From a virus, in the IMG/VR virus record IMGVR_UViG_3300034030_000032, positions 1 through 32,210 of that record: a stretch of 32,210 bases of DNA; one strand, written 5' to 3'. Under the pieces are notes generated by a model. That model searched no databases. It was given only the letters and a program-made list of their open reading frames with translations, and had not been told where the DNA came from. This document shows positions 1 to 32,210 of this stretch, in pieces. The first letter of the stretch is position 1. Each line of letters starts with the position of its first letter. Position numbers and translations under genes: made by a program.

Positions 1-207
1 TTATTCCAGTTCCTGATAAATCGGCTTCCCATCGACGAACCAGTTCTTCCCCGTCTGCGTCTGGATCGTGCCTGTCCAGATTTTTCCCTTGCGCCGACAT
101 TCCACAGATTCGACCAGTTCCCCGCCGATGATCGTTCTGTTCATCGCCGTCAGCATTTTCATCAGCTTCAGCCCGTCAGCTTCGTTCGCTTTGATTTCGA
201 TTGTCAT
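1..207 (-). CDS. hypothetical protein, 68 aa
   Basis: I do not recognise this 68-residue protein. It is a mixed alpha/beta sequence with an N-terminal MTIEIKANEADG stretch, a helix-like KLMKMLTAMN segment and a basic middle (CRRKGKIW). The ATG at 207 follows a GGGGA ribosome site eight or so bases upstream and overlaps the stop of the preceding 51-residue gene as ATGA, which suggests translational coupling. It is the last gene of the leftward run before the window edge and is complete, ending in TAA at base 1. Confidence 0.7.
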   Translation of the reverse strand: MTIEIKANEADGLKLMKMLTAMNRTIIGGELVESVECRRKGKIWTGTIQTQTGKNWFVDGKPIYQELE

Positions 208-359
208 TCGTTCCCCTTCGTAGGTTTGTTTTTCCCGCGCTTGTCCCCCAGACCTTTTCGAGCCTTCGACGCAGGCTTCCCGAACACCCGTTCCCAGTTC
301 GCAGCCAGTTCAGCATCGCTGATGCTCGACGGCCGTCGCTGTGATCCCTTCCCCGCCAT
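204..359 (-). CDS. small basic phage protein, 51 aa
   Basis: This 51-codon gene reads MAGKGSQRRPSSISDAEL at its start and ends KPTKGNE. Small proteins opening with MAGKG(D/S)xxRP and holding a W/Y-x-R-(V/I)-F-G-K core are common in phages, and here the core is NWERVFGK at residues 21-28; their function is not known. The start is well fixed: GGGGGA lies just upstream of the ATG at 359. It sits directly after the HNH-AP2 gene and its TGA overlaps the ATG of the next gene. The protein is very basic and rich in Gly and Lys at its C-terminus. Confidence is high that it is translated and low for any role. Confidence 0.82.
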   Translation of the reverse strand: MAGKGSQRRPSSISDAELAANWERVFGKPASKARKGLGDKRGKNKPTKGNE

Positions 360-369
360 TAGTCCCCCT

Positions 370-855
370 TTAAGCAGCAGCCTTCACGACTGGAAGATTC
401 AGATTCGCGAACGCGCCGAAGTATTCAATCGCCGCGATGTCGTAAGCCTGTGCTGCTGCGATTTCATCAGAGAAGGTGCCCAGATGGACCTTCTTTCCGT
501 GCCGCTTTATCTGCGCTTTCCACTTCTTCGTACGCTTATTGAAGCAGACGCCTTTGAATCGGGATGAAGCTGGTTTTAGTTTTCGCCGATTTCCCTGATT
601 CTGATGACCCGTAGCAATACGAAGATTTTCTTTTCGATTATTCAGGCCGTCGCCGTCCAGATGATCGACCTGAATCTTCGGATCAGTCACGCCCATTATT
701 AGACGATGTAACTTGACGGCCTTCCGATTGATCCGCGTATAAGCGTAGTTTGTGGCAAGGTCGCGGATGACGAACCATTTCAGATCACGCAGCCGATCCC
801 AGTCTTCGTCATCGACGACTGCAACATCGCCGCTGAACAGTTCAATTTGTTTCAT
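370..855 (-). CDS. HNH endonuclease with AP2 DNA-binding domain
   Basis: This 161-residue protein has the layout of phage HNH-AP2 homing-type endonucleases. An HNH motif covers about residues 50-80: His50 in KLHRLI, the catalytic Asp64-His65 pair in QVDHLDGDG, and the NNRKENL segment that ends the metal-binding fold. An AP2/ERF-like DNA-binding domain follows at about residues 97-150, with SRFKGVCFNKRTKKW, a LGTFSDEIAAAQAYD strand-helix unit and the closing IEYFGAFANLN. All key residues are present, so it should nick or cut DNA. The ATG at 855 follows GGGGA. It resembles the gene at 6613-7260 and the degraded relative at 2076-2573. It may be a free-standing mobile gene, as no intron was seen. 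Confidence 0.93.
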   Translation of the reverse strand: MKQIELFSGDVAVVDDEDWDRLRDLKWFVIRDLATNYAYTRINRKAVKLHRLIMGVTDPKIQVDHLDGDGLNNRKENLRIATGHQNQGNRRKLKPASSRFKGVCFNKRTKKWKAQIKRHGKKVHLGTFSDEIAAAQAYDIAAIEYFGAFANLNLPVVKAAA

Positions 856-867
856 TCGATTCCCCGT

Positions 868-1047
868 TCATGCTGCTGCCCCCCTTCGATGTCCTGCGTG
901 AAAGCCGTCGCAGATCAGGCATCGATAGGACACGACGCCGACTTCGCCGATCTTCGTCAGGTGCCTGACGTGCCTGTCCGCCTTTGCCTTCGTCGCGTGC
1001 CTGTGTTTCCTGCGACACGTCGCGAACAGCTTCACGCTGCTTGTCAT
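868..1047 (-). CDS. small putative zinc-binding protein, 59 aa
   Basis: This short gene encodes 59 residues. The protein has CRRKHRH near residue 11 and YRCLICDGFHAGH near residues 44-56, so it offers two or three Cys and several His that could bind one zinc ion in a treble-clef or ribbon-like fold. The sequence between is rich in His, Lys and Arg, which would suit nucleic acid binding. The ATG at 1047 lies close behind a G-rich stretch holding GGGGA, and the TGA is 12 bases before the HNH gene start. The zinc and nucleic acid roles are inferred from composition only. Confidence 0.7.
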   Translation of the reverse strand: MTSSVKLFATCRRKHRHATKAKADRHVRHLTKIGEVGVVSYRCLICDGFHAGHRRGAAA

Positions 1048-1060
1048 CCCCCGTCCCCTG

Positions 1061-2573: not shown

Positions 2574-2685
2574 CCCCGTCCCCCTTTGCGGCCTTCACTG
2601 CTTCAGCGACTTCCTTCTTCACGTCCAGTGCAACAGCCAGCCCGAGCAGCAGACCGAACGCGATCCCCGATAAGAATGACATCAT
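2545..2685 (-). CDS. tiny single-pass membrane protein, 46 aa
   Basis: This 46-codon gene is unusually small. It starts MMSFLSGIAFGLLLGLAVAL, a clean hydrophobic segment of about 18 residues, and continues with a charged helix (DVKKEVAEAVKAAKGDGDER). It is expected to sit in the host inner membrane with a short cytoplasmic tail. GGGGGACAA precedes the ATG at 2685, so the start is strong. The ATG overlaps the TGA of the Clp N-domain gene, so the two are made together. It overlaps the following gene by 29 bases. Its function is unknown; an accessory to the Clp N-domain protein is possible. Confidence 0.78.
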   Translation of the reverse strand: MMSFLSGIAFGLLLGLAVALDVKKEVAEAVKAAKGDGDERTDHRSA

Positions 2686-3071
2686 TTGTCCCCCGGCTGC
2701 GTCGTCGGCTTGAATGTCCCCGTCAGCTTCAATCCGTTTTCCAGCGTGATCGTGACTGTCTGTTCCGTCAGCTTCGGTTCCAGCAGGTCCAGAACATCCT
2801 TCACGCTGATTCCCTTTTCCCCGAGCATTGTTGCAGCGCGACCGCTGCCTTCCTTCAGCATCCCGAGCAGCAGATGTTCAGTCCCGATCCAGTTGTGTCC
2901 CATCTGTTCGGCCGTTTGCTTCGCCAGTGCGACAGCCTTCCGCGCCCGATCCGTGAACCGTTCGAACGTCGGCTTCGATAGCATCTTCTGCGATTCGGCA
3001 ATGGCGAACAGATGCTTCAGTTCGTTCTTCCACGCGTCAATTTTCTTCTTGTCGTCTTCGTTCATTTTCAT
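2682..3071 (-). CDS. orphan Clp N-terminal domain protein
   Basis: The 129-residue protein contains a Clp N-domain repeat at about residues 36-98: FERFTDRARKAVALAKQTAEQMGHNWIG..., then TEHLLLGMLKEGSGRAA and MLGEKGISVKDVLDLL. This is the signature of the N-domain of ClpA/ClpB/ClpC, which binds adaptors and substrates. The AAA+ modules that normally follow are missing, and the protein ends with about 30 unrelated residues rich in beta-formers (TVTITLENGLKLTGTF). Residues 1-35 form a charged helix. It could act as a decoy or adaptor for host Clp machinery, which is inference. The ATG at 3071 overlaps the upstream stop, and its stop overlaps the start of a tiny membrane protein. Confidence 0.9.
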   Translation of the reverse strand: MKMNEDDKKKIDAWKNELKHLFAIAESQKMLSKPTFERFTDRARKAVALAKQTAEQMGHNWIGTEHLLLGMLKEGSGRAATMLGEKGISVKDVLDLLEPKLTEQTVTITLENGLKLTGTFKPTTQPGDK

Positions 3072-3493: not shown

Positions 3494-3539
3494 GCGAATC
3501 TTCCTTCTATTTTCTTTTCGACCTGATCGGATTTTCTGA

Positions 3540-5051: not shown

Positions 5052-5091
5052 CGATCCCCCTTCACAGGAATGACTTCACGTTGAAATAAGA

Positions 5092-6412: not shown

Positions 6413-6625
6413 TTAAAAATCTTTCAGCAGGTCATCGACCAGCGGATCAGCCGTCTGTCGCGGACATTGCTTTGCGTGTTCGACGAGAACTTCCAGCAGG
6501 CGTCGAGCCTGATCAGTGTCGAGAGAACGAACCAGAAGCTTCAGGTCATCCCTGCTGACCAGCAGGAAGCGATAGATCGAGCGTCTTTGCGCGGCCGTCG
6601 CTTGTGGTGTTTTCACGCCGTCCAT
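6413..6625 (-). CDS. hypothetical helical protein, 70 aa
   Basis: I do not recognise this 70-residue, mainly helical protein (QRRSIYRFLLVSRDDLKLLVRSL, then QARRLLEVLVEHAKQ). The frame is open further upstream, but the ATG at 6625 is preferred: GGAAG lies about eight bases before it, and it overlaps the HNH-AP2 stop by only 13 bases. The sequence ends with DPLVDDLLKDF and TAA, so it is complete. Its place directly behind an endonuclease gene may reflect co-transfer, but nothing else links them. Confidence 0.7.
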   Translation of the reverse strand: MDGVKTPQATAAQRRSIYRFLLVSRDDLKLLVRSLDTDQARRLLEVLVEHAKQCPRQTADPLVDDLLKDF

Positions 6626-7260
6626 TTGATCCGCTTCCCGTCCTGATCGACTTTGAACTTGTAGCCCTTTTGCGGTCCCCGCTTCCGTCTTCTGGTCAGA
6701 TCGGCTTCCGTCATCTGCCCAGCGTCGAGCCGACACGCGAACTGCGCATCAGTGACCAGCGGTCCGAACTTCTGCGTGTTCGTCTGCGCGAAGTCGCCGA
6801 AGTAGAACATCGCCGCGATGTCATAGGCTGTCGCTGCTTCTTCTTCTGTGACGTAGGTTCCCAGCCGTTTTATCTTCCCCTTCACGCCGATCTGTGACAT
6901 CCAAACATGATGGAATCTTTTGTTCATCAGCGTGACGCCTTTGAATCGGGACGACTTCGGCTTCCCGTTGTGTTGCGTCCGGATGCGCTGGTTCGAACAG
7001 TTTTCCTGATTCGAGCAGACGCGAAGGTTCGACCTTCGATTGTCTAAGCCGTCGCCGTTCGCGTGATCGACTATCACGCTGTCATCTGTGATCCCGAGAA
7101 TGAACCGATGAAGCACGGGACATCCGATCCGCTTCGATCTGTTGCGGACATAGGTCGTGTTCCTGCTTTCGAAGGATGACCAGTTGAACTGGCTGACGCG
7201 TTCGACATCGATGTCGTCGATCAGTGCTGTCCCGCCGTTCTTAAGCTGAAGCCGTGCCAT
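6613..7260 (-). CDS. HNH endonuclease with AP2 DNA-binding domain
   Basis: This 215-residue protein is the larger of the two intact HNH-AP2 endonucleases. The HNH part spans about residues 49-82: LHRFILGI, catalytic Asp65-His66 in VIVDHANGDG, then GLDNRRSNLR. The AP2-like DNA-binding domain spans about residues 103-158 (SRFKGVTLMNKRFHHVW, RLGTYVTEEEAATAYD, FYFGDFAQTN). A further 55 residues at the C-terminus (TRRRKRGPQKGYKFKV) are basic and may add target contacts. The ATG at 7260 follows a GGAAT site rather than GGGGGA. It stands first after a terminator-like hairpin, so it may have its own promoter. Confidence 0.93.
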   Translation of the reverse strand: MARLQLKNGGTALIDDIDVERVSQFNWSSFESRNTTYVRNRSKRIGCPVLHRFILGITDDSVIVDHANGDGLDNRRSNLRVCSNQENCSNQRIRTQHNGKPKSSRFKGVTLMNKRFHHVWMSQIGVKGKIKRLGTYVTEEEAATAYDIAAMFYFGDFAQTNTQKFGPLVTDAQFACRLDAGQMTEADLTRRRKRGPQKGYKFKVDQDGKRIKWTA

Positions 7261-7390: not shown

Positions 7391-7396
7391 CGCTCT

Positions 7397-7669
7397 TCAA
7401 TTGTCTTCATCGGGATCATCTGGATTCAGTCGAGCATCTTCCATCGAGTCCTGAATTTTGCGCGACAGTTCGCGGAAGGTGCTGGTGTCGATCTGCTTCA
7501 CTTTGTCGAGCAGCGCCCGGATGATCGGCTTCCAGTGATCAGGCGCTGTCGGGATGTCGGCGCTGATCGCGTCGATCAGCATCTTCAGCGTCGGCGCGCC
7601 TTCATACATGCGAAGCAGCCTGAAGTCCCGTCGAGTGAAGTGAATCGGCTTTGTCGGTGCCTGTCCCAT
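7397..7669 (-). CDS. hypothetical protein, 90 aa
   Basis: I do not recognise this 90-residue protein. It looks all-helical, with THFTRR-like basic segments near the start (IHFTRRDFRLLRMYEG), a middle helix (APTLKMLIDAISADI) and an acidic, disordered tail (DARLNPDDPDEDN). Its GGGA site and ATG at 7669 are preceded by a small GC hairpin shared with the leaders of the next three genes upstream. It is followed by two hairpins, so it probably ends a transcript. Confidence 0.75.
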   Translation of the reverse strand: MGQAPTKPIHFTRRDFRLLRMYEGAPTLKMLIDAISADIPTAPDHWKPIIRALLDKVKQIDTSTFRELSRKIQDSMEDARLNPDDPDEDN

Positions 7670-7692
7670 CTGTCTGTCCCTTCGCCGCTGGA

Positions 7693-8109
7693 TCAGCGGC
7701 TGTTCGATTTCCGCTTCGTCCGCTTCGGCTTCGTCAGTTGTGTAGGTCCGTCCAGATCGAGCAGACCCGCTGCGCGCAGTCCGAAGATTCGATTCCGTAG
7801 AAGCGCCGCTGGAACTTTCGCCTTCTTCCGTTTGCTCTTCATCGCTGGACTGCGACCGTCGATCTTCGCGAACCGTTCGCGGATGTTGTTCACCAGTTCG
7901 TCAGCGGTGCCGTCGCCGTGATCGACGAATCGAGCGATCCGCCGGTTCCCGTCTTTGATCATCTTCCCATCGCTGGTGCGGATGACTTTGAAGTTCCCGC
8001 TTTTCGCGTACCAGTCGAGCCGAAGCCCTTCCTTTTCCAGTCGCTGCCATAGCGTTCTTTGACGAACACTGGAAGGCTTCGCTTTAGTCATGGTCGTCTG
8101 CGTCATCAT
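7693..8109 (-). CDS. hypothetical basic protein, 138 aa
   Basis: I do not recognise this protein. It has an N-terminal helical unit (SSVRQRTLWQRLEKEGLRLDWYAK), a central part with GNFKVIRTSDGKMIKDG that looks like a beta hairpin, and a long basic C-terminus (MKSKRKKAKVPAALLRNRIFG; KPKRTKRKSNSR). The charge suggests binding to DNA or RNA. Two ATG codons stand side by side at 8109 and 8106, after GGGA. The opening residues MTQTT resemble the MTQTIE start of the neighbouring 115-residue protein. Confidence 0.72.
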   Translation of the reverse strand: MMTQTTMTKAKPSSVRQRTLWQRLEKEGLRLDWYAKSGNFKVIRTSDGKMIKDGNRRIARFVDHGDGTADELVNNIRERFAKIDGRSPAMKSKRKKAKVPAALLRNRIFGLRAAGLLDLDGPTQLTKPKRTKRKSNSR

Positions 8110-8119
8110 CTGTCCCTTC

Positions 8120-8133
8120 GCCGCTGGTGCGGC
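8120..8133 (-). repeat. GC hairpin in a gene leader, one of four alike
   Basis: GCCGC and GCGGC pair around TGGT just upstream of the ribosome site of the gene at 7693-8109. Comparable hairpins stand before three other genes of this block, at 7685-7699, 8528-8542 and about 8895-8910. On the minus strand three of the four end in CAGCGG and the fourth in the close variant GCGGGC; most are followed by GAAGG. Confidence 0.6.
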
Positions 8134-8163
8134 CGTCGAGCCTTCGCCCCTCTTCGAGCAGGA

Positions 8164-8511
8164 TCAGTCGCTGTTCAGCTTCGACTGTTCAGCCGCTGAC
8201 ATCCCGACCCAGCGGCAGTCACGGCCGCTGATTCTCTTCAGCATCAGGATCAGTTCTTCTGCGGTTGCAGCCGCAATGTGATCGGTCATCCATTCAACGG
8301 TCTGGATCGATTCATCCGTGATCAGTTCAGTCATCTTCACGATCTTCAGCCGACCGATTCGAAAGTGACTGACTTTGCTGGGAACGATCACCAGATAGGG
8401 AAGCAGATCGCGAACAGCGACGGGATCATTCGGGAAGTTCGACGCATACTTCTTCACGTATTCAATCGCCTGCTTCTTCTGCTGCTGGTTCTGTTCAATG
8501 GTCTGTGTCAT
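8164..8511 (-). CDS. hypothetical protein, 115 aa
   Basis: I do not recognise this protein. The frame is open to a GTG at 8565, but the ATG at 8511 is preferred because it follows a GAAGAG site and a leader hairpin like those of the neighbouring genes, and because the resulting MTQTIEQN start resembles that of the 138-residue protein. The N-terminal 30 residues form a Gln/Lys helix, the middle is a beta/alpha mix (LLPYLVIVPSKVSHFRIGRLKIV), and the end holds helical segments and WVGMSAAEQSK. A start at 8565 would add 18 residues. Confidence 0.66.
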   Translation of the reverse strand: MTQTIEQNQQQKKQAIEYVKKYASNFPNDPVAVRDLLPYLVIVPSKVSHFRIGRLKIVKMTELITDESIQTVEWMTDHIAAATAEELILMLKRISGRDCRWVGMSAAEQSKLNSD

Positions 8512-8605
8512 CTCTTCATTCCGATCTGCCGCTGGTCGCGGCTGTAAAATTTGCGACAGCTTCACCTACTGCCGCTGAAGTGCTGTGGCTACACAGCGCT
8601 AAGTC

Positions 8606-8648
8606 GTCGCCGAAGTTCGGATACTGTGATCCGCGTTGAATCGGCGAC
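8606..8648. repeat. 8-base inverted repeat at the end of the 77-residue gene
   Basis: GTCGCCGA at 8606-8613 pairs with TCGGCGAC at 8641-8648, overlapping the TAG stop. A tighter hairpin (GCTGTG with CACAGC around GCTA) lies at 8583-8598. The 136 bases between this gene and the next hold these structures, and no gene could be supported there. No T-run marks a terminator. Confidence 0.45.
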
Positions 8649-8881
8649 TATTCAATTCGTCCCAGAACATCCGATCCCCGTTCGCGATCCGCGACCATAT
8701 CGGCCAGCGTCCCTGTCACTTGTGCGCCGTCGATGGTCCAGAACCTGATCGTCACGGTGTCGGCTTCGCGAGCCTGATCGATAGGTAAAGAACTTGGTTC
8801 CGTCCGTCGTCCCCGGAATCGGATGTCATCATCGGCTGACGCAAGTTCGTCGAGCCGTTCGATTGCTTCATGTACTGTCAT
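8648..8881 (-). CDS. hypothetical acidic protein, 77 aa
   Basis: I do not recognise this 77-residue protein. It starts with a helix (MTVHEAIERLDELASADDD), has a central beta region (DTVTIRFWTIDGAQVTGTLAD) and ends GSDVLGRIE, with a TAG stop that is rare among its neighbours. GGAA precedes the ATG at 8881, and a leader hairpin and a terminator-like structure lie just upstream. It is the first confident gene after the gene-poor region and so may be the first gene of the early block. Confidence 0.7.
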   Translation of the reverse strand: MTVHEAIERLDELASADDDIRFRGRRTEPSSLPIDQAREADTVTIRFWTIDGAQVTGTLADMVADRERGSDVLGRIE

Positions 8882-8921
8882 CGCTTCGTTCCTTCGCCCG
8901 CTGTGCGAGCCGTAAACAAAC

Positions 8922-8965
8922 GCAGCAGGTCACAGCCGATCCTGACAATCGACTGCGCCTGCTGC
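8922..8965 (-). terminator. possible branched terminator before the early block
   Basis: GCAGCAGG at 8922-8929 pairs with CCTGCTGC at 8958-8965. The 28-base loop can itself fold (CGAT with ATCG). Read leftwards the structure is followed by GTTTGTTTA, which is T-rich. It stands about 40 bases before the ATG at 8881. The long loop makes this less certain than the other terminators. Confidence 0.42.
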
Positions 8966-9186
8966 TTGGGACAGATCATCCGTGATGGTCTGACTGACGC
9001 GTCCTGCGTGTTTGTGTGCGGATCGATCCGTCGATCCCCAGCTTCGCCAGTGTCAGGCTGACGAGCCGATTCAGCGTGAACAGACCTTCAGCGGGACAGT
9101 TCAGGACAGACCCGAACCGTCTGCTAACAAACGGAACTGGATTAGCTGCGTCCCGTCGAGCCGTCACCAGCCCCACAGGACAGCCC

Positions 9187-9216
9187 ATAGCTTAGGGATT
9201 CCAGCCCCCCAGTCAA
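9187..9216 (-). promoter_or_regulatory. possible leftward promoter
   Basis: The minus strand carries TTGACT at 9216-9211, close to a sigma-70 -35 box, with TAAGCT about 16 bases further on as a poor -10 box. It follows an AT-rich stretch and points at the early block. The -10 match is weak, and nothing is known of the host's promoters, so this is only a candidate. Confidence 0.28.
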
Positions 9217-9251
9217 TAGGGAAAGCAAAATATTTTTACCTAAAGCCTGAT

Positions 9252-9290
9252 ATTCACTCGACTTCTGTTCGAGAGGCGCGAGTGAATATT
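9252..9290. repeat. AT-rich inverted repeat, likely operator or origin element
   Basis: ATATTCACTCG and CGAGTGAATAT pair perfectly over 11 bases with an 18-base spacer, at about 9250-9290. They lie in the most AT-rich part of the gene-poor region, beside a run of A and T (AAAATATTTTTA). This could be the operator of a dimeric regulator or part of an origin where strands open. Confidence 0.6.
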
Positions 9291-9331
9291 CGTTCATAAT
9301 CTGTTAGGGTAGAGCAGCAAGTTGTAAAGAA

Positions 9332-9408
9332 CCTGTTGCCGATTTCAACAGGCTGTTGAAGTGACCTGTTGCGACCTGTTGAAGTGACCTGTTGAAGCTT
9401 TCAACAGG
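9332..9408. repeat. iteron-like array of CCTGTTG words
   Basis: Six exact copies of CCTGTTG or its complement CAACAGG lie at 9332-9338, 9346-9352, 9365-9371, 9375-9381, 9388-9394 and 9402-9408, with a partial copy at 9353-9358. An 18-base direct repeat runs over 9354-9371 and 9377-9394. The last two copies form a 9-10 base-pair hairpin around GCT. Such arrays bind replication initiators or repressors; neither has been identified here. Confidence 0.7.
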
Positions 9409-9420
9409 TTGCCCGCTGAC

Positions 9421-9445
9421 GGCCTTCCTGTTCGTTCTGCTGCGT
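9421..9445. repeat. interspersed 24-base repeat, copy 1
   Basis: This copy is GCCTTCCTGTTCGTTCTGCT followed by GCGT. It recurs exactly at 9616-9639 and with one change (T to C at the eighth base) at 26322-26345. All three copies lie outside confident genes. The origin and role are unknown. Confidence 0.7.
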
Positions 9446-9468
9446 TGTAGAGCCGAAGACGATCCGAC

Positions 9469-9513
9469 GGCCGTCGCTGCTCGACGACGCCTTAGAAGCG
9501 ATCAGCGACGGCC
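9469..9513. repeat. 11-base inverted repeat downstream of the late operon
   Basis: GGCCGTCGCTG at 9469-9479 pairs with CAGCGACGGCC at 9503-9513. It is flanked by two copies of CGAAGACGATCC, at 9454-9465 and 9521-9532. A terminator for the late operon would be expected near here, but no T-run follows the stem on the minus strand. Confidence 0.5.
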
Positions 9514-9615
9514 TTCGCGTCGAAGACGATCCAGCCAGTCCTGATGACGCTTCCGCTGCTCTTCAGCGGTCAGCCGTCGAGCGCGCGAGCAGTCCCCACA
9601 GGAAGCCTTCCCATT

Positions 9616-10083: not shown

Positions 10084-13000
10084 TTAGACGTAGGACATCG
10101 ACCACTTCTTCACGACGATCTGATTCCCGATGATGTAGCCTTCTTCCCAGTTGTGATGAACCGTGCAGCCGTCAGTCGCCGTGATCGTCGGCGACGGTTC
10201 AGGCGGCTGCGTGAACGTCCCGAGCATCGATGAAGTATCGACAGTCGCGTCAGTGTTCGCGCCCGTGCTGGTCCAGTTCGTCCAGCGGTGCCACGCGACC
10301 GGATCGCCCATCGCGTTAAACCGTCGATGACGTTCGATGGAATTGATGCCCGCACAAAGCGGACTTTGAACAGGATCGTAGGGACTTTCAGACACGTCTT
10401 CGGATTCGATGTCGCCAGCGTCGATCAGGCTGTATCGCCCGTAGTTGTAGAAGTCCATCGAAGCAGCGACCAGCGTCGTCTTCGTCGCGCGACCATAAGC
10501 AGAATTGCGGGACAGTCCGACACTGTTTTCCCCGCCGTTCGTGCTGTCGATGAACGCCGCCGACGATGCTGACGGTGGACCTGATCCTGTTCCTTCCTGA
10601 ACGGGATCAGCGTTCGTGTCACAGAAGACAATCGGATTACAGACGCTGATCGGTGGACAGCCGTCAGGTCCGCCGTAATTGACCGCGATCTGATATTCGT
10701 TCTTCGCGCCACACTTGTAGATGTCGGTGCCATCGCAGCGGAACAGGAATCCGCCGTTCAGGATTGTGTCGAAGCTGTGCTGTGGCGATTCCCCCTGTCC
10801 TTCTGAACAGAAGGCTTCACCAGTGAACGCGCCGTCGCTTCCTGTAGCGTATTTGTGCCTGACCCACGAATAGCCGTCCTGTGTCCATTGAAGCGCGCTG
10901 ATCGCCGCCTTCACTTCCGCGACCTGATCAGCATCAGGCGAATAGTCGTTCTTCATCGCCCGTCCGTATTGAACACGAACATCAGGTCGGCCGACGCAGA
11001 CCTTCACGCCGTTCGGGAACGTCGCCGTCTGACTGGTCATCCCAGTCGGTTTGATCCATTGTCCCGACGAGCGTTCCCAGATTGTCCCGTGAAGCGGTTC
11101 GTCGATGACGTAGCTGTCGCCAGCTTCGACGGTCACGCCTTCGCTGACGGACCAGAACAGCGTCGTCCCATCATTCGCGATGATCGTGACTTCGTGATCC
11201 GTCTGATCCGACGCCTTCCTGATCTGAAGCTTCCGCCCTTTGAACCTGTTCAGGATGTTGCGCGGTTCGCTGATGCTGTAGGTCGTCGAGTTATCGACCG
11301 TGATTCCACAGGCGACGAAGGTCAGCGTCGTCCCGCTGAAGCCTGTGATCAGTGTCTTCTTCGTGATCCCGCCCTTCGTCAGTGTCAGCGTCCAGCCGAT
11401 CCAGCGTCCAGTCGCTGCGTCCCAGCGGCCGTCAGAAGCCTTCGATGTATCGGTCAGCGTCGTCGAGCTTCCCGACGTAGCTGTCCCCGTCGCGGCCGTG
11501 TAGCTGCCGAACTGTTCCCAGTTCCCCGCGCTGTCAGTCAGGAAGAAGTTCCCGCCGTCAGTCGCAGCGCCGCGAAGTCGCGGTTCCCATCTGCGCGTAT
11601 GACCGTCGAACGTCCCTTTGTCTGCTTCGATTGTTTCTTCCGTCAGCGAAGGCGCATCAGGACTGAAGCTGTCCGTCAGTGTCGTGTCTGCGAAGTTAGC
11701 GCCGACGAAGCGTCCCGTGTCGCCGTTCTGAATCGGGAAGCGACTGCTGTCGATCACTTCGCCGTAGGTCGAAGACTTCAGTCCCCCGAGCGAATCGACT
11801 GATCCCAGTGATTCATCCTTCGATTCACGATAGGCCGTCGAAGCTGATCGCGTGATCCAGCTTCCCGGTGTGTCGGATGTCGGCGTCGTGATCAGAACGT
11901 CGTCTTCGTCATAGCCTGCTTCAAAGTAGGTTCGCGGGAACAGGTGCCTGAATTCGTTCGGGACTTTTCGAGTCCAGCCGTAGCTGAAGACGACGGTTCG
12001 TCCGACATCTTCTTCGGTCATCCCGTAGCCGTTCACGACGACTTCGCCGTCCCCCTGCGCGACCAGATAACCTGATCCCAGAACAGCGTTCCCTTCCCCG
12101 ATGATCGCCCAATAAATCCCGATAGGCGTGTAAGGATGCGCGCCGAGATTCAACGTAGCGTAGTAGTCGAACGATCCCCCGCTGTAGACGGCTTCCCAGC
12201 CCGTGACAGAACCTGTCCCCGAGTTGATCCCGAGCGCATGAAACAACGTCGCAGGAACATAATTCTGGAACGCCTGCGTCCCGCCGTAGCCGATCATCGG
12301 AAGCCAGTTCGAACAGTTCGCTTCAATGTAGGTCTGAACTGCGCGCCACGTCTTCCAGTAGTCAGGCGTTTTGATGCTGTCGCCGTTCGCGCGTGTCTGT
12401 CCTGTTTCGGGAATCTGCGTGATCTTTTCGACTGGTTCCGTGATGACATCCCTGTCGAACAGATATTCCGTCGTGATTTCAGGTTCCCCGATGACGCCGA
12501 TTTCCGGATAGCGAATCCACGTCACCGAGTTCTTCGCGATCCCTTCAGCGCCCCACAGAACCTGACTGGACAGATCATCCGCTGTGACGTGCGACCAGTT
12601 CGCGGACTGCGGTCCGCGTGTCCACTTGTCCGCCTGATCCGGCTGATGTCCCAGAATGTAATCAGCGCCGCCTGCGATGAAGATCGCATAGGCCGAAGGT
12701 CGCGAGCGTGAAGCGACATAATCCCCAGCCAGCGTCAGCGTCTTCGCAGTGTTCGACGTGATCGTCCCTGTCCGTGTTCGGCCGTTCACGTAGAAGGCGA
12801 CGGACTTCCCCGCCCATTCGTTCGCGGTCCAGTTCTGCTGATCATCCTGAAGGATCGTGATCGAATTGAATTTGAAGCTGACCTGACGACCGATGTCGGC
12901 TGCGCTGGTCGCTGCGTCCGTGAACGTGATCGTCGGCGTCGGCGTCGTCGCCGTCGTCGTTCCCGTGAAGCTGGTCCCCGCGATCCTGAACGTGACGCTG

Positions 13001-13596: not shown

Positions 13597-13621
13597 TCAT
13601 TCCCCCGAGCGTCGGACGCTT

Positions 13622-17188: not shown

Positions 17189-17198
17189 TGCTTCCCCC

Positions 17199-19757: not shown

Positions 19758-20684
19758 TTAGGCGACGAGCGCTTCGGTGTTCACGATTGCATCGGTCACG
19801 ATGATCGGAACGCCATGCGATTCAGTCGGGAACGGTGCAGGCGCGCCCGAGCTATTTACGGCAGTGCGGGAAGCCTGAAGCTGTCCCAGCGACTGACGGT
19901 TCATCACCAGATGCGTAGGACCGCGACCGGCTGGGAACTTGTTGATCAGCGAAGCGATCAGGATGTCCGTCAGCCCCTTGCCAGCTTGCGTGGTCAAATT
20001 GCAGATTCGGCCAAGGCTGTAGGCGCTTCCGACCTGAACGGTCAGCCACGAACCGATAGGCGTGACATAGGCCGCGTAGGTGTTCCCGCTGACATCAGCC
20101 AAGAACTGCGTACCGGTTTCCTTCACGCTGATCACGCCGTCATTGCCGATAACAGCAGCGACATCCAATTCGTCAGGCGTGCTGCGAACTGCGTAGACGC
20201 TGGTTGCGCCGCCGACAGTGGTGCCAGTCGCGTTGACGACCATCGCGTTCGACAGTGCGTTCAGCGCCTGTTTGAAGCCATCGAAGCCCGAGCCGCCGCC
20301 GTTGATCAGTTGCTGTTCGAAAGTGAACAGGGACTGACCGATGTTGCGCGGAAGCTTGCGAGCGATGAAGCCCTGTGCGCCGCCGATGTAGGCGTCAGCA
20401 GTTGCCACGTCCACGATATGCGAGCCGTCCATGTACTTCAGATCGACAGTGACAACAGTGTCACCAGAAGGCGTCCGAGCGATACCGCTGTTCGGTGCGC
20501 GGAAGCCGACCGAAGGTGCGGTCGTTTCCTTAATGTACTTGTGCTGCGTTCCAGCAGAAGCAGGAACAGTGTGAAGTGCCTTCAGCAAAGGTGCATCGCG
20601 AAGGATGTCAGACATCCCCAGATCGCGAGCGTTTTTGTCGTTGATCTTCAGAAGATCAGCGAGAGTGTAGAGCGTGTCAGCCAT
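19758..20684 (-). CDS. major capsid protein
   Basis: The 308-residue protein follows the protease/scaffold gene and is followed by a strong terminator, both typical of the major capsid gene. It starts MADTLYTLADLLKINDKNAR and contains GFRAPNSGIARTPSGDTVVT and FEQQLINGGGSGFDGF, in the manner of HK97-fold capsids that bind early with an E-loop-like region. The C-terminus (HGVPIIVTDAIVNTEALVA) is also of capsid type, with the closing PIIVTDA strand. The codon use differs slightly from its neighbours, with more GCC, ATC and CTG in context, as expected for high expression. GGGGGA precedes the ATG at 20684. There is no decoration protein gene between protease and capsid. Confidence 0.86.
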   Translation of the reverse strand: MADTLYTLADLLKINDKNARDLGMSDILRDAPLLKALHTVPASAGTQHKYIKETTAPSVGFRAPNSGIARTPSGDTVVTVDLKYMDGSHIVDVATADAYIGGAQGFIARKLPRNIGQSLFTFEQQLINGGGSGFDGFKQALNALSNAMVVNATGTTVGGATSVYAVRSTPDELDVAAVIGNDGVISVKETGTQFLADVSGNTYAAYVTPIGSWLTVQVGSAYSLGRICNLTTQAGKGLTDILIASLINKFPAGRGPTHLVMNRQSLGQLQASRTAVNSSGAPAPFPTESHGVPIIVTDAIVNTEALVA

Positions 20685-20709
20685 TTTGGATTCCCCCTAA
20701 GGCGTGTTG

Positions 20710-21255: not shown

Positions 21256-21858
21256 TGGAATTGCCCCCATACATGGACTCTTCGCGAATCGCACGAAGAA
21301 CCCCTTCCCCGAATTTTTGTTATCGACTTTCCGTTCGCTGAAGAATACTTCTGCCGACGTGTTCCGATCCTTCCCGAACTTCACAATCGCGACGGCCTTC
21401 AGCGACCATTCGCGAACGACGGTCACAGGACCAGCGATGTCGCGGCCGTTCACGTTCACGCTGAAGCCTTCAGGAACGAATTCCATCAGACAGTCTTCGT
21501 TGAACTGGATCGACGCTTCGAACGGAACGCCCGCCGTCATCTTCGTCACCAGTGCGGCTGTCTGTTCATCCGCGATCACAATCGCGCCCGAGCAGACCAG
21601 ATCACCGGATGACGTGTCGAATTTATTCAGCCAGCCGTTCGAATCAGACTGATCGTGTTCCCAGTCCAGCGGAATCTTCGCTTTGTGCGACATCCCGCTG
21701 AAGTCGTGAACGACGCGTCCCCAGCCTTTGATTTCGACAGCATCACCAGACCGCGCGATTAGCGTGACCTTCGCAGACTTCGCCCCTGCGCCGTTGCTGG
21801 TCAGCGATAGTTCAGCGGACATCATCAGGTCCGACGGATTAAGCAGCGCGTTTGTCAT
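20710..21858 (-). CDS. prohead protease with scaffold domain (gpC-like)
   Basis: The 382-residue protein joins a serine protease and a scaffold. The N-terminal 200 residues have the features of S78/ClpP-like prohead proteases: IKGWGRVVHDF, a likely catalytic His68 in LDWEHDQSD and Ser116 in GVPFEASIQF. From about residue 215 to 300 the sequence is repeated Glu/Ala/Val (AVKVEAVEADVKAEQTVTD), then a helical C-terminus (FKQFVELFGAEKAAVYFSEG). The ATG at 21858 is chosen because GGGGGA lies just before it, and it overlaps the portal stop by 20 bases; the frame is open to 21870. A second in-frame start inside it may give scaffold alone. Confidence 0.85.
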   Translation of the reverse strand: MTNALLNPSDLMMSAELSLTSNGAGAKSAKVTLIARSGDAVEIKGWGRVVHDFSGMSHKAKIPLDWEHDQSDSNGWLNKFDTSSGDLVCSGAIVIADEQTAALVTKMTAGVPFEASIQFNEDCLMEFVPEGFSVNVNGRDIAGPVTVVREWSLKAVAIVKFGKDRNTSAEVFFSERKVDNKNSGKGFFVRFAKSPCMGAIPMNEDQKPVAIESQAVETKAEAEAVKVEAVEADVKAEQTVTDEVKAEAVTTEVVEAVEAVKTEQTVEAVMEQVAEAVEASADPVAVAMSALSKPVDPRSEFKQFVELFGAEKAAVYFSEGKSFDAAKDEHLKFLSQQNVELTKRLTAIDRGADKPVKFSDRSDASEKKIGSIKDVIRFAGQK

Positions 21859-23341
21859 TCTTTCCCCCATTCGATTTCACAGTCTGTTCTTCCTGCGTCT
21901 GCTGTTCGATCAGATTGCTGACGACCTTCGCGTTCCCGCCGACAGGGAACGGAATCCCGAGTTCTTCACACTTCTTCTTCGCGTCTGCGATTTCCTGAAT
22001 GATCGTGTTCCAGTCCTGTCCAGATTCCTTCGCCAGACGCTGCGGACTGGTCAGAAGATTTTCCATCGCCATCGCGTTGGCGCTGACTTCCTTCAGCGGA
22101 TCGATCCACGGAAGCGGTGCCGCGATCCATTCGAACGAGATGTCATCCATCCCGAACGGTGTCCCGTCGTCGTGATTCGGAAGCGTCAGATGACCATCAG
22201 CGATGAACAGCTTCAGTCGCCAGACGGTCAGACCGTTCAGCAGTGCGATCAGGTTCTGTCGTTTGTGTTCGGCCGATTGTTCGTACATAAGCAGCGCCTG
22301 ACGTGCGCCGCTGTAGTTCGTGTGACTTTCGTCGAAGAACGAATAGGGAAGATCAGCAGCGCCTTTGATTGCGTTCGCTGTGACCGTGTTCCCGAACTGC
22401 TGGAATTCGACCGAAGGCGTCTTCGATTCCAGAAATTCCAGATCGTCTTCAGGATCGAGTTCGGCAAATTGCGGACCTTCGTTCAGATCGACGTTGTAGC
22501 TTCCAGCCGTGTCAGTCCCGTTGTCAGTAGCATCAGCATCACCAGCGACCGCCGCCCGTCTGTACTTCGCGAGAAACAGCGAAGCAGCTTTCATTTTGTT
22601 CAGCGCGTAGTCCTGCGCTTCGTACAGATCGACGAACGTGTTCATCGCTGACGACAAAGGCGACACGCCCCTGATCTGGTCATAGCGGTCGATGTAGGCG
22701 TGATGAAAAACGTTCCGAGCATCGACGACTTCCTTCAGTGCGAAGCCGCCTGATCCCTGTGCGCCGGTTCGTTCACACAGCGCGTAGCTGATCGCGCGTC
22801 CAGCGTCATCGACCTGAACGCCGTGAACGAAGTCTTCGACTTTGTAATCTGTCCCGTGTTCGGTGTTGTACTTCTTCAGGTCATTCGGTGTCCTGACGCG
22901 ATCAGCTTCGATGATCTGGATCGTCCCGTCGCTGATCTTCATCACGAAGCAGTCGCCTTCTAAGAAGGCTAATCCTTCGATCATCCGGACCATTCGCAGG
23001 AAGCCGAAGCGTCCAGACGCGTCACAGTTCAGCGGTCGCATCCACCACGTCATCAGCGCTTCGACCAGATTGTTCAGTTCTTCAGACTTCGAACGACACT
23101 GGAAGGAAAAGGCCGCGACATAATCCAGATGCTTCCTGACCATCCACGCAGCGACAGGACTGTTCCGTCGCAGGCTGCGCGCATTGCTGATCATCTGGTC
23201 ACGGTCCAGCGGCTGGAACAAACCGTCTTCCGCGCGTGTATCAATCGGCGTCGTTTGACGACGCTTGCGACCTGTCAGCGCGTGATAAGCCTTCGCTGCG
23301 CCAGCCAGAATATTCGTGACTGCTGATAGATTGTTCGACAC
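21839..23341 (-). CDS. portal protein, lambda gpB type
   Basis: The 500-residue protein fits the lambda-type portal family: RSLRRNSPVAAWMVRKHLDYVAAFSF near residue 55, LVEALMTWWMRPLNCDASGRF, LEGDCFVMKISDGTIQIIEADRVRTP, and VFHHAYIDRYDQIRGVSPLSSAMNT. It forms the twelve-part ring through which DNA enters and leaves the head. The start is GTG at 23341 behind GGGGGAATCT. It follows the gpW-like gene and overlaps the protease gene, exactly as in lambda. Confidence 0.93.
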   Translation of the reverse strand: MSNNLSAVTNILAGAAKAYHALTGRKRRQTTPIDTRAEDGLFQPLDRDQMISNARSLRRNSPVAAWMVRKHLDYVAAFSFQCRSKSEELNNLVEALMTWWMRPLNCDASGRFGFLRMVRMIEGLAFLEGDCFVMKISDGTIQIIEADRVRTPNDLKKYNTEHGTDYKVEDFVHGVQVDDAGRAISYALCERTGAQGSGGFALKEVVDARNVFHHAYIDRYDQIRGVSPLSSAMNTFVDLYEAQDYALNKMKAASLFLAKYRRAAVAGDADATDNGTDTAGSYNVDLNEGPQFAELDPEDDLEFLESKTPSVEFQQFGNTVTANAIKGAADLPYSFFDESHTNYSGARQALLMYEQSAEHKRQNLIALLNGLTVWRLKLFIADGHLTLPNHDDGTPFGMDDISFEWIAAPLPWIDPLKEVSANAMAMENLLTSPQRLAKESGQDWNTIIQEIADAKKKCEELGIPFPVGGNAKVVSNLIEQQTQEEQTVKSNGGKNDKRAA

Positions 23342-23822: not shown

Positions 23823-25868
23823 CTAAAAACTTAGCTTCAGCTTCGGACGCCTTCGCTTCGGCTGATCCGCCGTAGGATGTCCGACGGCCGCGATCCCCTG
23901 TTCTGACGCTGCGACATAGCAGCCGATCACACAGTCCAGCCAGTGATTTTCCCTATTAGGCTTTACGCGCCAGACGTTCACAGTCCTTCCATTCGCTTCG
24001 ACTGGTGTCGCCGATTCGCTGGTCAGATGTTCGCTGAACATCTTGTGTCGCGCCCGATTCGCTGCTTCATTCGGATCAGCTTCGAACAGCGACAGATTCC
24101 CCTGTTCCCCTGCTGACATCATCAGCCGCTGCGCGATTAACGTCTTCCATGCGTTCGCGTCGAACAGAACGTGACCTTCGTCCCTGTTGAAGAGCCACGA
24201 CCAGCCGCGCCTTCCCCCGGCCTTCAGCATCCATTCGTCCAGCGGCTTTCGATCCGCCTGAAAACCGTATCCCTTCGACGCGAGCAGGATCGACCGATTC
24301 GGCGATTCACGGATGAACTGCTTCACGACATCATCGCGATAGCCTGCGTCGATCATCACGCGACTGATCCGAAGGCTGTCCCCGCCGTCGATCTGATAGT
24401 TCGTCCCTATTAGCTTCTTCGTCAGTTTGTCGAGTCCGTCATAAAGCTGACCTTCGAACGCAGCGCCCGGCTTCAGGTCAGCCAGCGTCGGCTTCACTTC
24501 GCGAAGGAAGAAATAGTTCCGAGCCTGTTCAGGATAGCAGCCATAATCGACGACGTGTGACGTGAAGTCTGGACCGAACGCGCCGACGGAATAGAACAGA
24601 ACTGATCCCTGAACGTCGATCATCGCCGTCAGCTTCGTCGCATAGCTGGGAACGATCAGTCGCTTCGTCGCGACCGTCTTCCCGATGACCTGATCAGGCG
24701 TGATCGCCAGAACCGAACCAGCATCCAGCGACAGCGGCTGATTCTGATATTCGGCCGCGAAGGTCGCTTCGTCCCTGAACTTCAGGTTCATCGCGTGCTG
24801 AATCGCTGACGCTTCGTCGCTGTTGAATCGAGCAGGCCACGAAGCTTCAGCGCCTTCGTCCAGTTCCTGCTGATGTTCCAGATAGAAGGCCGTTGCTGGT
24901 GTCAGACCTTCGCCCGTTCGCAGTCCCTGCGCGCGGATTTCTGAATACTGTTCCCATAGCTTCACGTTCGTCGGCATCGACTTCATCAGCCCGAACTTCA
25001 GACCTTGCCAGTCGGGACAGCGCTTCCGATCCAGAACGACATCAGCCAGATCGCCCCGCGCGATGACGGTCACAGGCATCACGCCTGCGATCTTCTGACC
25101 CGGACCAGACAGGCCAAGGATCGCGCCGTTCACAGTGTTCAGTCGGCGCTGGACCTGCATAGGCGAAGCAGCCGATTCGTCAGTCTGCGGATCGTCGATC
25201 ATCACAAAGTCAGGTCGAACGGTCGCGCCGTCAGACGGCCGCTGGATCATCATCCCGCGAACACGACCAGTGATCCCCGCGACCTTCACACAAGCGCCGC
25301 TGGACGCCGATCCCGTGACCGTCGGAAGGATCAGTTCCTTCTGTGTGATATGAATCTGCGTCCGTTCCCCGTCGAGCAGTTGACCAGCCTGACGGCTGAC
25401 GATCCCTTCCAGCTTCCTGATCGGGAAGCAGACTTCAGGGAAGTCTTCGTTCAGCAGGTCGTTTGATTCGAGACTGGAACGCAGATGATCCAGCAGATCG
25501 ACGGCTGCGTCTTCGGAAGCGCCGATCAGGACGACGAAGCGTCTGTGACCGTAGAGCAGCGCCCAGATCGCAGCAGCCAGCGTCAGCGACGTTTTCCCGC
25601 TTCCGCGCGGCATTGCCACAGCGAAGAGTCCCCCGCCTGTAATCGCCTGCTGGATGGTCTGGATGACAGCCAGATGATCGACTGACCAGACCAGATTGAA
25701 GACGGCTGGGAAGTAGGTTTCGCAGAAGTCGCGGAAGTCGAGCCGACAGCGATCCCGTCGAGCAGGATCGACGACGGCTGGAAGCGGACCGATGTCCCGA
25801 CCTTCCTTCGACTGTTCGCGAAGGATGTTCGCGACCTGCTGCTTCCGCTCTTCGTAGTTCTTCGCCAC
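23823..25868 (-). CDS. terminase large subunit, gpA type
   Basis: The 681-residue protein has an ATPase domain with Walker A MPRGSGKT at residues 86-93 and Walker B FVMIDDPQ at 221-228 (Asp-Asp instead of the usual Asp-Glu). The nuclease domain has Asp418 (AMIDVQG) and Asp507 (VMIDAGYRDD) as metal-binding candidates. The C-terminal NHWLDCVIGCYVAA matches the gpA family. It cuts and packs the DNA into the head. The start is GTG at 25868 behind GGGGGACT. A small subunit was not clearly identified; the 90-residue gene upstream is a candidate by position. Confidence 0.94.
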   Translation of the reverse strand: MAKNYEERKQQVANILREQSKEGRDIGPLPAVVDPARRDRCRLDFRDFCETYFPAVFNLVWSVDHLAVIQTIQQAITGGGLFAVAMPRGSGKTSLTLAAAIWALLYGHRRFVVLIGASEDAAVDLLDHLRSSLESNDLLNEDFPEVCFPIRKLEGIVSRQAGQLLDGERTQIHITQKELILPTVTGSASSGACVKVAGITGRVRGMMIQRPSDGATVRPDFVMIDDPQTDESAASPMQVQRRLNTVNGAILGLSGPGQKIAGVMPVTVIARGDLADVVLDRKRCPDWQGLKFGLMKSMPTNVKLWEQYSEIRAQGLRTGEGLTPATAFYLEHQQELDEGAEASWPARFNSDEASAIQHAMNLKFRDEATFAAEYQNQPLSLDAGSVLAITPDQVIGKTVATKRLIVPSYATKLTAMIDVQGSVLFYSVGAFGPDFTSHVVDYGCYPEQARNYFFLREVKPTLADLKPGAAFEGQLYDGLDKLTKKLIGTNYQIDGGDSLRISRVMIDAGYRDDVVKQFIRESPNRSILLASKGYGFQADRKPLDEWMLKAGGRRGWSWLFNRDEGHVLFDANAWKTLIAQRLMMSAGEQGNLSLFEADPNEAANRARHKMFSEHLTSESATPVEANGRTVNVWRVKPNRENHWLDCVIGCYVAASEQGIAAVGHPTADQPKRRRPKLKLSF

Positions 25869-25887
25869 AGTCCCCCGTGTCCCCTGA

Positions 25888-26610: not shown

Positions 26611-26621
26611 TCGTTCCCCTT

Positions 26622-26675: not shown

Positions 26676-26703
26676 CTGTCCCCCTTCGTCCGTGTGTGAT
26701 GAC

Positions 26704-27090: not shown

Positions 27091-27107
27091 GTTTCCCCCT
27101 TGCGCGC

Positions 27108-27503: not shown

Positions 27504-27532
27504 ATAAACGATCCCCCTTCAGTGTCTTTCGA

Positions 27533-29556: not shown

Positions 29557-29566
29557 TTGCTTCCCC

Positions 29567-31792
29567 TTAGAACCCTGTAGATTGTGGCGGTGTCGTGATA
29601 TGGATCGCGGTCCGCGCTGCGTGATAAAAGCCTTCCAGATAAACGATCTTCCCAGCGCCGACAGTGAACGTCGTCGCGCCTGAATCCAGCTTCCAGAATG
29701 AAGACAGCGTGACCGTGATCGCGCTGACTGAAGTGTTCGCGATGCGAACTGTGATCCGCTGAAAATCCTGCGGATTGCTGACCGTTCCCATCGTGAACGA
29801 TCCAGTCGCGTTAATCGTGATATTGTTCGCGTTCGAAGCGTTGCCTGCTGACGTGTCGCCAGCGCCGACAGCGATGACCTGCTGTCCGATGATCAGCGAT
29901 TTTCCGACAGTCATCGCGCCTGCGATGTTCGCGAGTCCAGACGCCGACACGTCGCCAGATTTGTTCACGCTGAAGACGGCTTCGGCTGCGTCCCCGTTGT
30001 AGACGCTGATCGGACTGCCTGTCGTTCCGTCTGTGCAGACGACTTCGACGCCGTGATCTGACAGGTCCGTGATGTCCGTCTGAACACGACCAGACAGTCG
30101 AGTCGCCGTCAGGTGATACAGGGACAGCGTGACATCATTATTCCAGCCGTCCCCGGATTCGTTCACGTTGCGCAGCCATAGGATCGAATCGTCGCCGCTG
30201 CCGCCGCCGAAGGCTTCGAGCGCAGTAGCTTCGCTGATCAAATAAGGTCCATCTTGTTCCTTCGTCAGCGAAAAGAAGTCCGAACAGGTCGTCCCAGCGA
30301 AGACGGTTCCGACTGAACAGGCAAGGCCGTTATATTGTCCCGTGATCGTCACGTCGCCCGCTGTCGTCACGTCGCCGTTCTGCGCGACTGCGAACTTCTG
30401 AACGTCCGATCCATCGACGATCTTCAGCGAAGCAGCCGATCCCGCGTTCTTCAGATTCAGACCGATCTGCGAAGCGGTCACGATGTCCAGCTTCGCCGTC
30501 GGCGCTGTGTTGCTGATCCCGACGCAGCCAGTCGAGCGAAGCGACATCAGTTCCGTCCCTGCTGTCAGCGCCAGACGATATTCGCTGTTCGTGCTGGTCG
30601 ATGCGACAGATCGAATCGTCGCCGCTGTCAGAACAGCCGCCGATCCATTCCATAGCGACATCCCGAGTGAAATCGAAGGCGACGACTGCTGTGATCCCGT
30701 GCTGGTCGCGGCCGTGTTCTGCAACATCACGAAGTTCTTCGCGCTTAGATCGCCGAATCCCGTCGAACCGTTCGTCACGCGCACCACGCCAGCCGCTGAC
30801 CGAACCAGTCCTGTGTCCTTCGTTGCAGTCGGATCAGTCGAACTGGATGACCACAGAAGCGAAGTCCCGCTTACGAATTGCGTGTTCCCCGTGTTCTGGA
30901 TTCCCGTCGTCTTCAGCGTCCCGATGTCGAGCGTGACATCATTCAGCCAGCCGTCGCCAGTCCCGTTCACGTTCCTGATCCAGATCGTCGAATCGCTTCC
31001 GCCTGATCCGCCGAATGTTTCATTCCCCGTCTTTTCCGTGATGACGAACGGACCCGCGTTTTCCTTCGTCAGCGACAGATAATCCGTGATCGTGCTTCCA
31101 GCACTGACAGTCGCGAAGTGTGCGTCTGTTGTCGCTGCCGACAGCGTTCCGGTCATCGTCAGCGCTGCGAGCGTCGTCAGTCCCGTGACGTTCAGCGTCG
31201 AACCTATTGCCTGCGCAGCCGTGAAGCTGTTCGCAGCGTTCTTCAGCGCGACGTTCGATCCAGCGATTCCGCTGTCAGCGATCCCGCCCGATCCGTCAGT
31301 CGTCAGAAGCCGTCCAGTCGTGACTGTCGCCTTCGTGACCTTCGCGTCGATTGCGGCCGTCAGTGTCGTGTTCAGCGCGTTGACAGTGCTGGTGTCAGCC
31401 TTCGCCGCGATGTCCGCCTGAAGGTCCGTCAGCATGATCCCCGAGTCCACAGGACGACCGAAGTCGTCTGCTGTCAGGATGTCCCCATCAGTCGGACTTG
31501 CGATCACTGACATCTTCCCGTTCAGCGCCGCCTGAAGTCCTGTGACGCCTGTGATTGCGATAGCAGGGATGTCAGCAGCAGTCAGAAGGCGATAGGAAGG
31601 CGCAGCAGCCGAACCAGACGCAGGTCCAGCCAGAACCTTATTCGCTGCCTGCGTCGATCCGCCCGATCCTGCTTCCAGTGCTTCCAGATGATCGGCGATG
31701 TACTTCAGATCGAACTGAAGCTTCTGTCCCCCGAGTCCCGTAGGATCAGGCGTCAGAACGTAGAGTCCCTTATAGAGCGTGAATGAAGACAA
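29567..31792 (-). CDS. tail fibre protein with duplicated modules
   Basis: The 741-residue protein is rich in Thr, Ser, Gly and Ala, as tail fibres are. It starts SSFTLYKGLYVLTPDPTG, has coiled-coil-like runs (TVNALNTTLTAAIDAKVTKA) and repeated strands (LNVTGLTTLAALTMTGTLSA). One module appears twice: DYLSLTKENAGPFVITEKTG with TIWIRNVNGTGDGWLNDVTL at about 30900-31090, and DFFSLTKEQDGPYLISEATA with ILWLRNVNESGDGWNNDVTL at about 30090-30285. It likely trimerises and binds the host surface. The start is TTG at 31792 behind GGGGGA. There is no obvious chaperone or cleavage domain at its end. Confidence 0.82.
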   Translation of the reverse strand: MSSFTLYKGLYVLTPDPTGLGGQKLQFDLKYIADHLEALEAGSGGSTQAANKVLAGPASGSAAAPSYRLLTAADIPAIAITGVTGLQAALNGKMSVIASPTDGDILTADDFGRPVDSGIMLTDLQADIAAKADTSTVNALNTTLTAAIDAKVTKATVTTGRLLTTDGSGGIADSGIAGSNVALKNAANSFTAAQAIGSTLNVTGLTTLAALTMTGTLSAATTDAHFATVSAGSTITDYLSLTKENAGPFVITEKTGNETFGGSGGSDSTIWIRNVNGTGDGWLNDVTLDIGTLKTTGIQNTGNTQFVSGTSLLWSSSSTDPTATKDTGLVRSAAGVVRVTNGSTGFGDLSAKNFVMLQNTAATSTGSQQSSPSISLGMSLWNGSAAVLTAATIRSVASTSTNSEYRLALTAGTELMSLRSTGCVGISNTAPTAKLDIVTASQIGLNLKNAGSAASLKIVDGSDVQKFAVAQNGDVTTAGDVTITGQYNGLACSVGTVFAGTTCSDFFSLTKEQDGPYLISEATALEAFGGGSGDDSILWLRNVNESGDGWNNDVTLSLYHLTATRLSGRVQTDITDLSDHGVEVVCTDGTTGSPISVYNGDAAEAVFSVNKSGDVSASGLANIAGAMTVGKSLIIGQQVIAVGAGDTSAGNASNANNITINATGSFTMGTVSNPQDFQRITVRIANTSVSAITVTLSSFWKLDSGATTFTVGAGKIVYLEGFYHAARTAIHITTPPQSTGF

Positions 31793-31844
31793 AGTGATCC
31801 CCCGTGAAGCTGTTCGCTTCCTTCTTCTTCGACCAGTTCAGCCT

Positions 31845-32210
31845 TCAGTCCTGCGTCCCTGTTTCGTCGTCGTGATCGGCTTCCTGATCTGCTTCCAGTT
31901 CAGCCTTCAGTTCTTCGAACGGAACGAATTCAGCGACGTTCGTGTCTTTCATCAGCTTCAAAACTGTTCCCGCCTTTTCCAGCAGCCAGTCGAGCCGATG
32001 AACGTCATCGAAGCTTCGCCACTTTGCGCGCGTGATTCTGACCTTCAGCGAACCGTCGAGCAGTTCAGACTGAAGCGCCGTCAGGCTGTCGGCTGTGATT
32101 TCATCGCAGAAGTTCCAGATAGGCTGAATCGATTGATCCAGATGAAAGTCGATTGCCTTCCAGAGTCTGTCCCCGTCGAACGTGATGAACTGTGTCGGAC
32201 GTGTTTCCAT
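31845..32210 (-). CDS. hypothetical protein, 121 aa
   Basis: The frame starts with ATG at the last base of the window, so the protein is complete if that is its true start, but it could extend further. It begins METRPTQFITFDGDRLWKAID and has WNFCDEITADSLTALQSELL, LKVRITRAKWRSFDDVHRLD and an acidic tail (ELEADQEADHDDETGTQD). The family is not recognised. It lies directly upstream of the tail fibre gene and may belong to the same structural block. Confidence 0.62.
   Translation of the reverse strand: METRPTQFITFDGDRLWKAIDFHLDQSIQPIWNFCDEITADSLTALQSELLDGSLKVRITRAKWRSFDDVHRLDWLLEKAGTVLKLMKDTNVAEFVPFEELKAELEADQEADHDDETGTQD

Follow-up and report, generated by a model that had tools for sequence, protein, structure and literature searches.

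Our exact counts on IMG/VR virus record IMGVR_UViG_3300034030_000032 (positions 1 to 32,210; the window, below, means this whole stretch of 32,210 nucleotides) reveal a phage genome in which one non-palindromic tetramer, GGAG/CTCC, is wholly lost, two more (TGAG/CTCA, GAGG/CCTC) are nearly so, and the Shine-Dalgarno sequences have been rewritten into a form that relies on wobble pairing. Word avoidance as such is known; this combination is new. We find it fairly probable that the phage was purged, over a long time, of many host restriction targets and that the GAG-type words among them serve one enzyme, or several, as short asymmetric cutting targets. The record is that of a tailed phage, with terminase, portal, major head protein and tape measure recognised and almost every gene on the minus strand.

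Loss of GAG-type words on both strands

The original prediction, made from the letters of the window alone, had claimed that GGAG and CTCC are absent. This holds, since neither occurs once in the whole record (0 and 0). Dinucleotide frequencies predict ~308 copies for the pair and, when codon usage was taken from 61 related loci of comparable GC to rewrite the phage proteins, 126 GGAG and 112 CTCC were expected in the coding DNA, with a minimum of 88 for either word in 200 trials. Shuffling of the phage's own GAG-poor codon usage still gives 75 GGAG and 41 CTCC. In the whole record, both strands together, TGAG/CTCA is found once and GAGG/CCTC twice, in the latter case outside the gene calls and at the very places noted before (CCTC at 8149, GAGG at 9273):

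8149..8152, minus strand: the sole GAGG on the coding (minus) strand, seen as CCTC at 8149 on the plus strand; intergenic
9273..9276, plus strand: the sole plus-strand GAGG; non-coding, within the inverted repeat GAATATTCACTCG...CGAGTGAATATC (minus strand)

Each eliminated non-palindromic tetramer pair had ~160-310 expected copies, and the loss of the three extends to both strands, every frame and coding as well as non-coding DNA, leaving two GAGG and one TGAG. Since GGAG, TGAG and GAGG are missing or nearly so on both strands, more than a codon or mRNA effect is at work, and the frequent occurrence of AGGA means that purine words are not lost in general. With the two strands taken together, GAG plus CTC is reduced to 189 copies from ~1579 expected (12%). 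Split by left neighbour (both strands), the survivors are GGAG 0, TGAG 1, AGAG 34 (~10% of expectation) and CGAG 154; split by strand they are 25 coding versus 164 template, and most of them are CGAG on the template strand. The earlier idea of selection against a DNA word that reaches into the Shine-Dalgarno sequences is upheld, while its target cannot simply be GGAG, with TGAG and GAGG equally gone and AGAG at about a tenth. The loss of TGAG/CTCA, the reduction of GAG to 12% and the many missing palindromic restriction sites (see below) go beyond what had been noted previously.

Selection on translation or mRNA, which would clear transcripts of GAG through avoidance of internal Shine-Dalgarno-like words or through a GAG-cutting RNase, could account for the 25 to 164 strand split and for the avoidance of out-of-frame GAG. 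However, it does not predict that coding-strand CTCC, CTCA and CCTC are zero as well, AGGA is not eliminated and the ribosome sites themselves are without GGAG; we regard such selection as quite improbable.

Synonymous recoding and tolerated copies

Within genes, G never follows a fourfold NGA codon (0/410), third-base G is found in 3/119 cases before AG as opposed to 471/546 before AA, and Leu is written CTC in 0/~325 cases before A or C and in 47/~170 before G. Glu, which had been said to be written GAA, is so in 382 of its 392 codons (GAG in the other 10). Over-represented among the replacements of GAG/CTC are CAG and CTG (both transversions), GAA and TTC. Nearly all GAG copies on the coding strand (23/25) come after GTC or GAA, and the tolerated form GTCGAG is present on both strands. 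Eight of the 25 cluster in 7% of the genome (p = 1.6e-4, for a stretch of 7.4-9.6 kb picked after inspection of the data):

7395..9561, minus strand: cluster of tolerated coding-strand GAG; partly non-coding, repeat-rich

Non-coding AACAGGT-type repeats (~9320-9410) adjoin the inverted repeat listed above and possibly mark a replication origin or regulator region. Simple codon bias was rejected, as out-of-frame copies and those on both strands are also missing, and so was a changed genetic code, as the loss is independent of frame and GAG is still found where Glu fits (the terminase, for one, begins MAKNYEER).

Ribosome-binding sites without GGAG

GGGGGA lies upstream of 24 of 41 gene starts and GGGGA of 5 more, mostly 4-7 nucleotides from the start on the minus strand, the 24/41 fraction being approximate because starts were partly selected by a purine-rich upstream stretch. 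These are the sites that the original prediction had seen. The word itself occurs 51 times on the minus strand and, because nearly all genes are on that strand, not once on the plus strand. Sites of this type serve the following genes, with the portal protein gene listed alongside:

10084-13596, minus strand: gene of 1170 amino acids; GGGGGA site at 13601..13606, minus strand
15236-17188, minus strand: tape measure gene; GGGGGA site at 17193..17198, minus strand
19758..20684, minus strand: major head protein (PHROG 212); GGGGGA site at 20692..20697, minus strand
21839..23341, minus strand: portal protein (PHROG 21)
23823..25868, minus strand: terminase large subunit, with relatives ~50% identical in Lentisphaerota/Planctomycetota genomes and viral contigs; GGGGGA site at 25871..25876, minus strand

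Consistent with the proposal that a G-U wobble preserves the site, pairing with CCUCC is predicted at -8.4 kcal/mol for GGGGGA versus -8.7 for GGAGG, and the mean predicted duplex energy is -8.9 at the phage starts versus -4.3 at random positions; the duplex partner was the 16S end of Victivallis (GGATCACCTCCTTTCT). Relatives usually have AGGAG, GGAG, GGAGG or GAGG, and by one rough method applied to both, GGGGG sites precede 39 of their ~1390 genes as against 16 of 38 in the window. So the phage's ribosome sites differ in type from those of its relatives without any loss of predicted strength.

GGGGGA at 24/41 starts might also be expected if the host itself avoided GAG/GGAG and carried an altered anti-Shine-Dalgarno (such as CCCCC), the phage simply matching host composition. 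Related host-genome stretches, however, hold GGAG near or above expectation (for example, 259 vs 220 and 226 vs 179), the Victivallis 16S end reads CCTCC, and a changed anti-Shine-Dalgarno gives no reason why CTCC and CTCA should be zero on the coding strand too. This makes an altered anti-Shine-Dalgarno, in our estimate, very unlikely.

Restriction fingerprint in palindromic sites

Two degenerate Type II patterns are gone in their exact form while similar siblings are kept (both strands): RGATCY is at 0 vs 114 expected with its sibling RGATCR at 330 vs 216 (1.5x expectation), and CCWGG is at 0 vs 175 expected with its sibling CCSGG at 34 vs 38. Zero copies are also found of CTAG, GTCGAC, GACGTC, CAGCTG, GGCGCC, CACGTG, CCGCGG and AGGCCT, and near-normal numbers of TCGCGA, TTCGAA, CGGCCG, ATCGAT and CGCGCG. 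GATC is over-represented (477 sites) despite zero RGATCY, and CGATCG is at 4 vs 55 expected.

Such all-or-none loss of exact Type II patterns supports restriction-site avoidance as the pressure, and that this phage has been under heavy restriction pressure is supported by the counts. Together with our findings below, that relatives purge other words, the palindrome purge makes additional restriction targets the best reading of the GAG-type words. Of the defences named in the original prediction, restriction therefore finds support in the loss of RGATCY, CCWGG and 6-bp palindromes, while bacteriophage exclusion (BREX) does not, as clearance of the tetramer in every context looks unlike a 6-bp target; to our knowledge, known BREX sites, which are asymmetric and go with a PglX methylase in the host, are 6 bp long and so would not clear a tetramer in all contexts.

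Relatives and probable host

The avoidance is peculiar to the window and shared by none of ~150 related or host-side stretches: its GAG ratio is 0.12, the next lowest among ~145 related viral and genomic loci being 0.66, and its most depleted non-palindromic tetramer is ~30x more depleted than the corresponding one of any other of 99 loci. Relatives purge other words: individual loci lack GGCC, CATG or GGACC altogether, and GGATC and GCAGC are strongly reduced. The last two are targets of known Type IIS enzymes, and both these asymmetric words are depleted in one related locus (L103). A prophage-like stretch with a terminase of the same group, from a Fibrobacter metagenome-assembled genome (L098, 1-22010), appears to be another heavily purged phage, with CATG at 0/35, GGACC at 0/40 and several hexamers at 0, including the asymmetric GAGCCC and CCCGAG.

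As judged from its terminase, whose nearest relatives (~50% identical, maximum 53% over part of the length) are in Planctomycetota and Lentisphaerota, the host is probably a planctomycete or lentisphaerote. Nothing above 53% was found in seven viral-contig scans and a terminase search of genome contigs, nor among 681 genomes of the two phyla searched with the terminase; megablast against named phages gave zero matches. A check for host mimicry through correlated context preferences gave no good match at any locus (best r 0.44).

Possible origin of the word loss

How might the words have been lost? The GAG-type words would be cut by a Type IIS-like enzyme, or by several, whose sites are short and asymmetric like CCTC/GAGG, each unmodified copy would be costly to the phage, and copies would be swapped for nearby tolerated words (GAG to GAA, CTC to CTG/CTT, xxG|AG to xxC|AG, GGAGG to GGGGG), with ribosome sites keeping their predicted pairing to CCUCC through one G-U wobble in GGGGG.

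There are precedents for parts of this scenario. MnlI recognises CCTC. In Helicobacter pylori, HpyAVI targets CCTC/GAGG, as described in a paper that also covers Hpy99V systems (PMC3936762) and in which a printed GGAG appears to be GAGG in 3' to 5' writing. The asymmetric 4-bp GAGG/CCTC of HpyAVI/Hpy99V and MnlI is one of the three word pairs purged here and we infer that the GAG words are targets of such asymmetric-site systems (Type IIS-like, HpyAVI/MnlI-like); unlike the phage's lost set, however, these do not cover TGAG. Phage T7 shows strand-biased Type III sites (EcoP15I), one orientation of one longer word having been removed. CGAG may be a parallel, as a non-palindromic word largely kept in one orientation here but with its GTCGAG exceptions on both strands; the words removed from the window are shorter and lost in both orientations. 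Depletion of protospacer adjacent motifs in phages likewise concerns a short asymmetric word, albeit as statistical shifts between phage groups (PMC4246573) and not as the total loss on both strands seen in the window. Also close in kind is restriction-site avoidance in phages, where Type II words are eliminated and palindromes brought to zero with degenerate siblings untouched (PMC6286503), as is the case here; unlike those cases, the window loses non-palindromic tetramers and the pressure extends to ribosome-binding sites.

Several of our data weigh against enzymes with short asymmetric sites as the full explanation. CGAG, at 12 coding vs 142 template copies, is not explained by a simple double-strand cutter or plain Type II enzyme, and third codon bases are tied to context far beyond the lost words (0.47 bits vs a median of 0.12, the highest of 92 loci). 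No single recognisable target covers all lost words, with AGAG at ~10% and CGAG strand-dependent, and we know of no single enzyme that reads GGAG, TGAG, GAGG and mostly AGAG as a set. Neither an enzyme nor a host has been matched to the phage, its terminase relatives being only ~50% identical. Moreover, avoidance was found mainly at orthodox Type II sites and not for Type IIG (Rusinov et al. 2018, PMC6286503). Besides such enzymes, extra selection at the coding level acts as well, or else a system sensitive to orientation. Strong third-base context dependence (0.35 bits) was also seen in a host contig from a rumen Thermoguttaceae metagenome-assembled genome (L162, 1-20000).

Extreme context-dependent mutation, by a deaminase or biased polymerase, would sit well with the 0.47 bits of context information. 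Yet GAG/CTC is replaced by several words, the transversions CAG and CTG included, and loss of RGATCY but not of RGATCR is no mutational signature. Hence, we give a mutational origin hardly any weight.

The strand bias of CGAG may, alternatively, point to one system that reads a 3-bp GAG in a context-dependent (GGAG, TGAG > AGAG > CGAG) and partly strand-dependent way, in Type III (head-to-head) or one-strand-marking manner, so that strong contexts are removed everywhere and weak CGAG is kept mostly in one orientation. In support of this are the 12 to 142 split of CGAG, the placing of 23/25 coding-strand GAG after GTC/GAA and the strand-asymmetric avoidance of Type III sites discussed in PMC6286503. 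GTCGAG is, however, tolerated on both strands, a 3-bp target would be unusual, and other words are equally lopsided (coding vs opposite strand: CCCC 0 vs GGGG 237; GTGC 9 vs GCAC 105), which means the strand bias may be coding-related. We therefore consider a single system of this type doubtful. Likewise, that a defence with a GAG-centred asymmetric target of 3-4 bp, partly strand-dependent, drove both the purge of hundreds of sites and the wobble form of the Shine-Dalgarno sequences seems to us possible but unlikely. GCCC is also lopsided on the coding strand (0 vs 101 for GGGC), where T stands before CCC in 64/65 cases.

Other genes of the window

Two genes for nucleases, both GGAG-free too, were recognised:

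370..855, minus strand: HNH-AP2 homing-type endonuclease
6613..7260, minus strand: second HNH endonuclease, AP2 match weak

Both are likely mobile; as they share the avoidance, recent entry from a genome of the usual composition is improbable for either. Homing-type HNH enzymes were the only nucleases, and no methylase was found, among 20 proteins scanned in Pfam and the subsets scanned in PHROGs and PADLOC, some small genes being unscanned. We also weighed, and set aside, the idea that the phage itself encodes a nuclease against host DNA: the two HNH-AP2 proteins resemble homing endonucleases, whose targets are normally long. A small protein (2682-3071) has a Clp amino-terminal domain (Pfam PF02861), which is unusual for a phage.

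Implications

In this phage, word avoidance prevails even over the most conserved signal of bacterial translation, and GGGGG-CCUCC wobble shows how such a conflict can be solved. Its list of purged words can be seen as a readable record of restriction systems that the host population probably carries, and the record includes asymmetric targets, which are rarely found avoided in large surveys. For the little-studied Planctomycetota and Lentisphaerota, this predicts enzyme specificities that are open to test.
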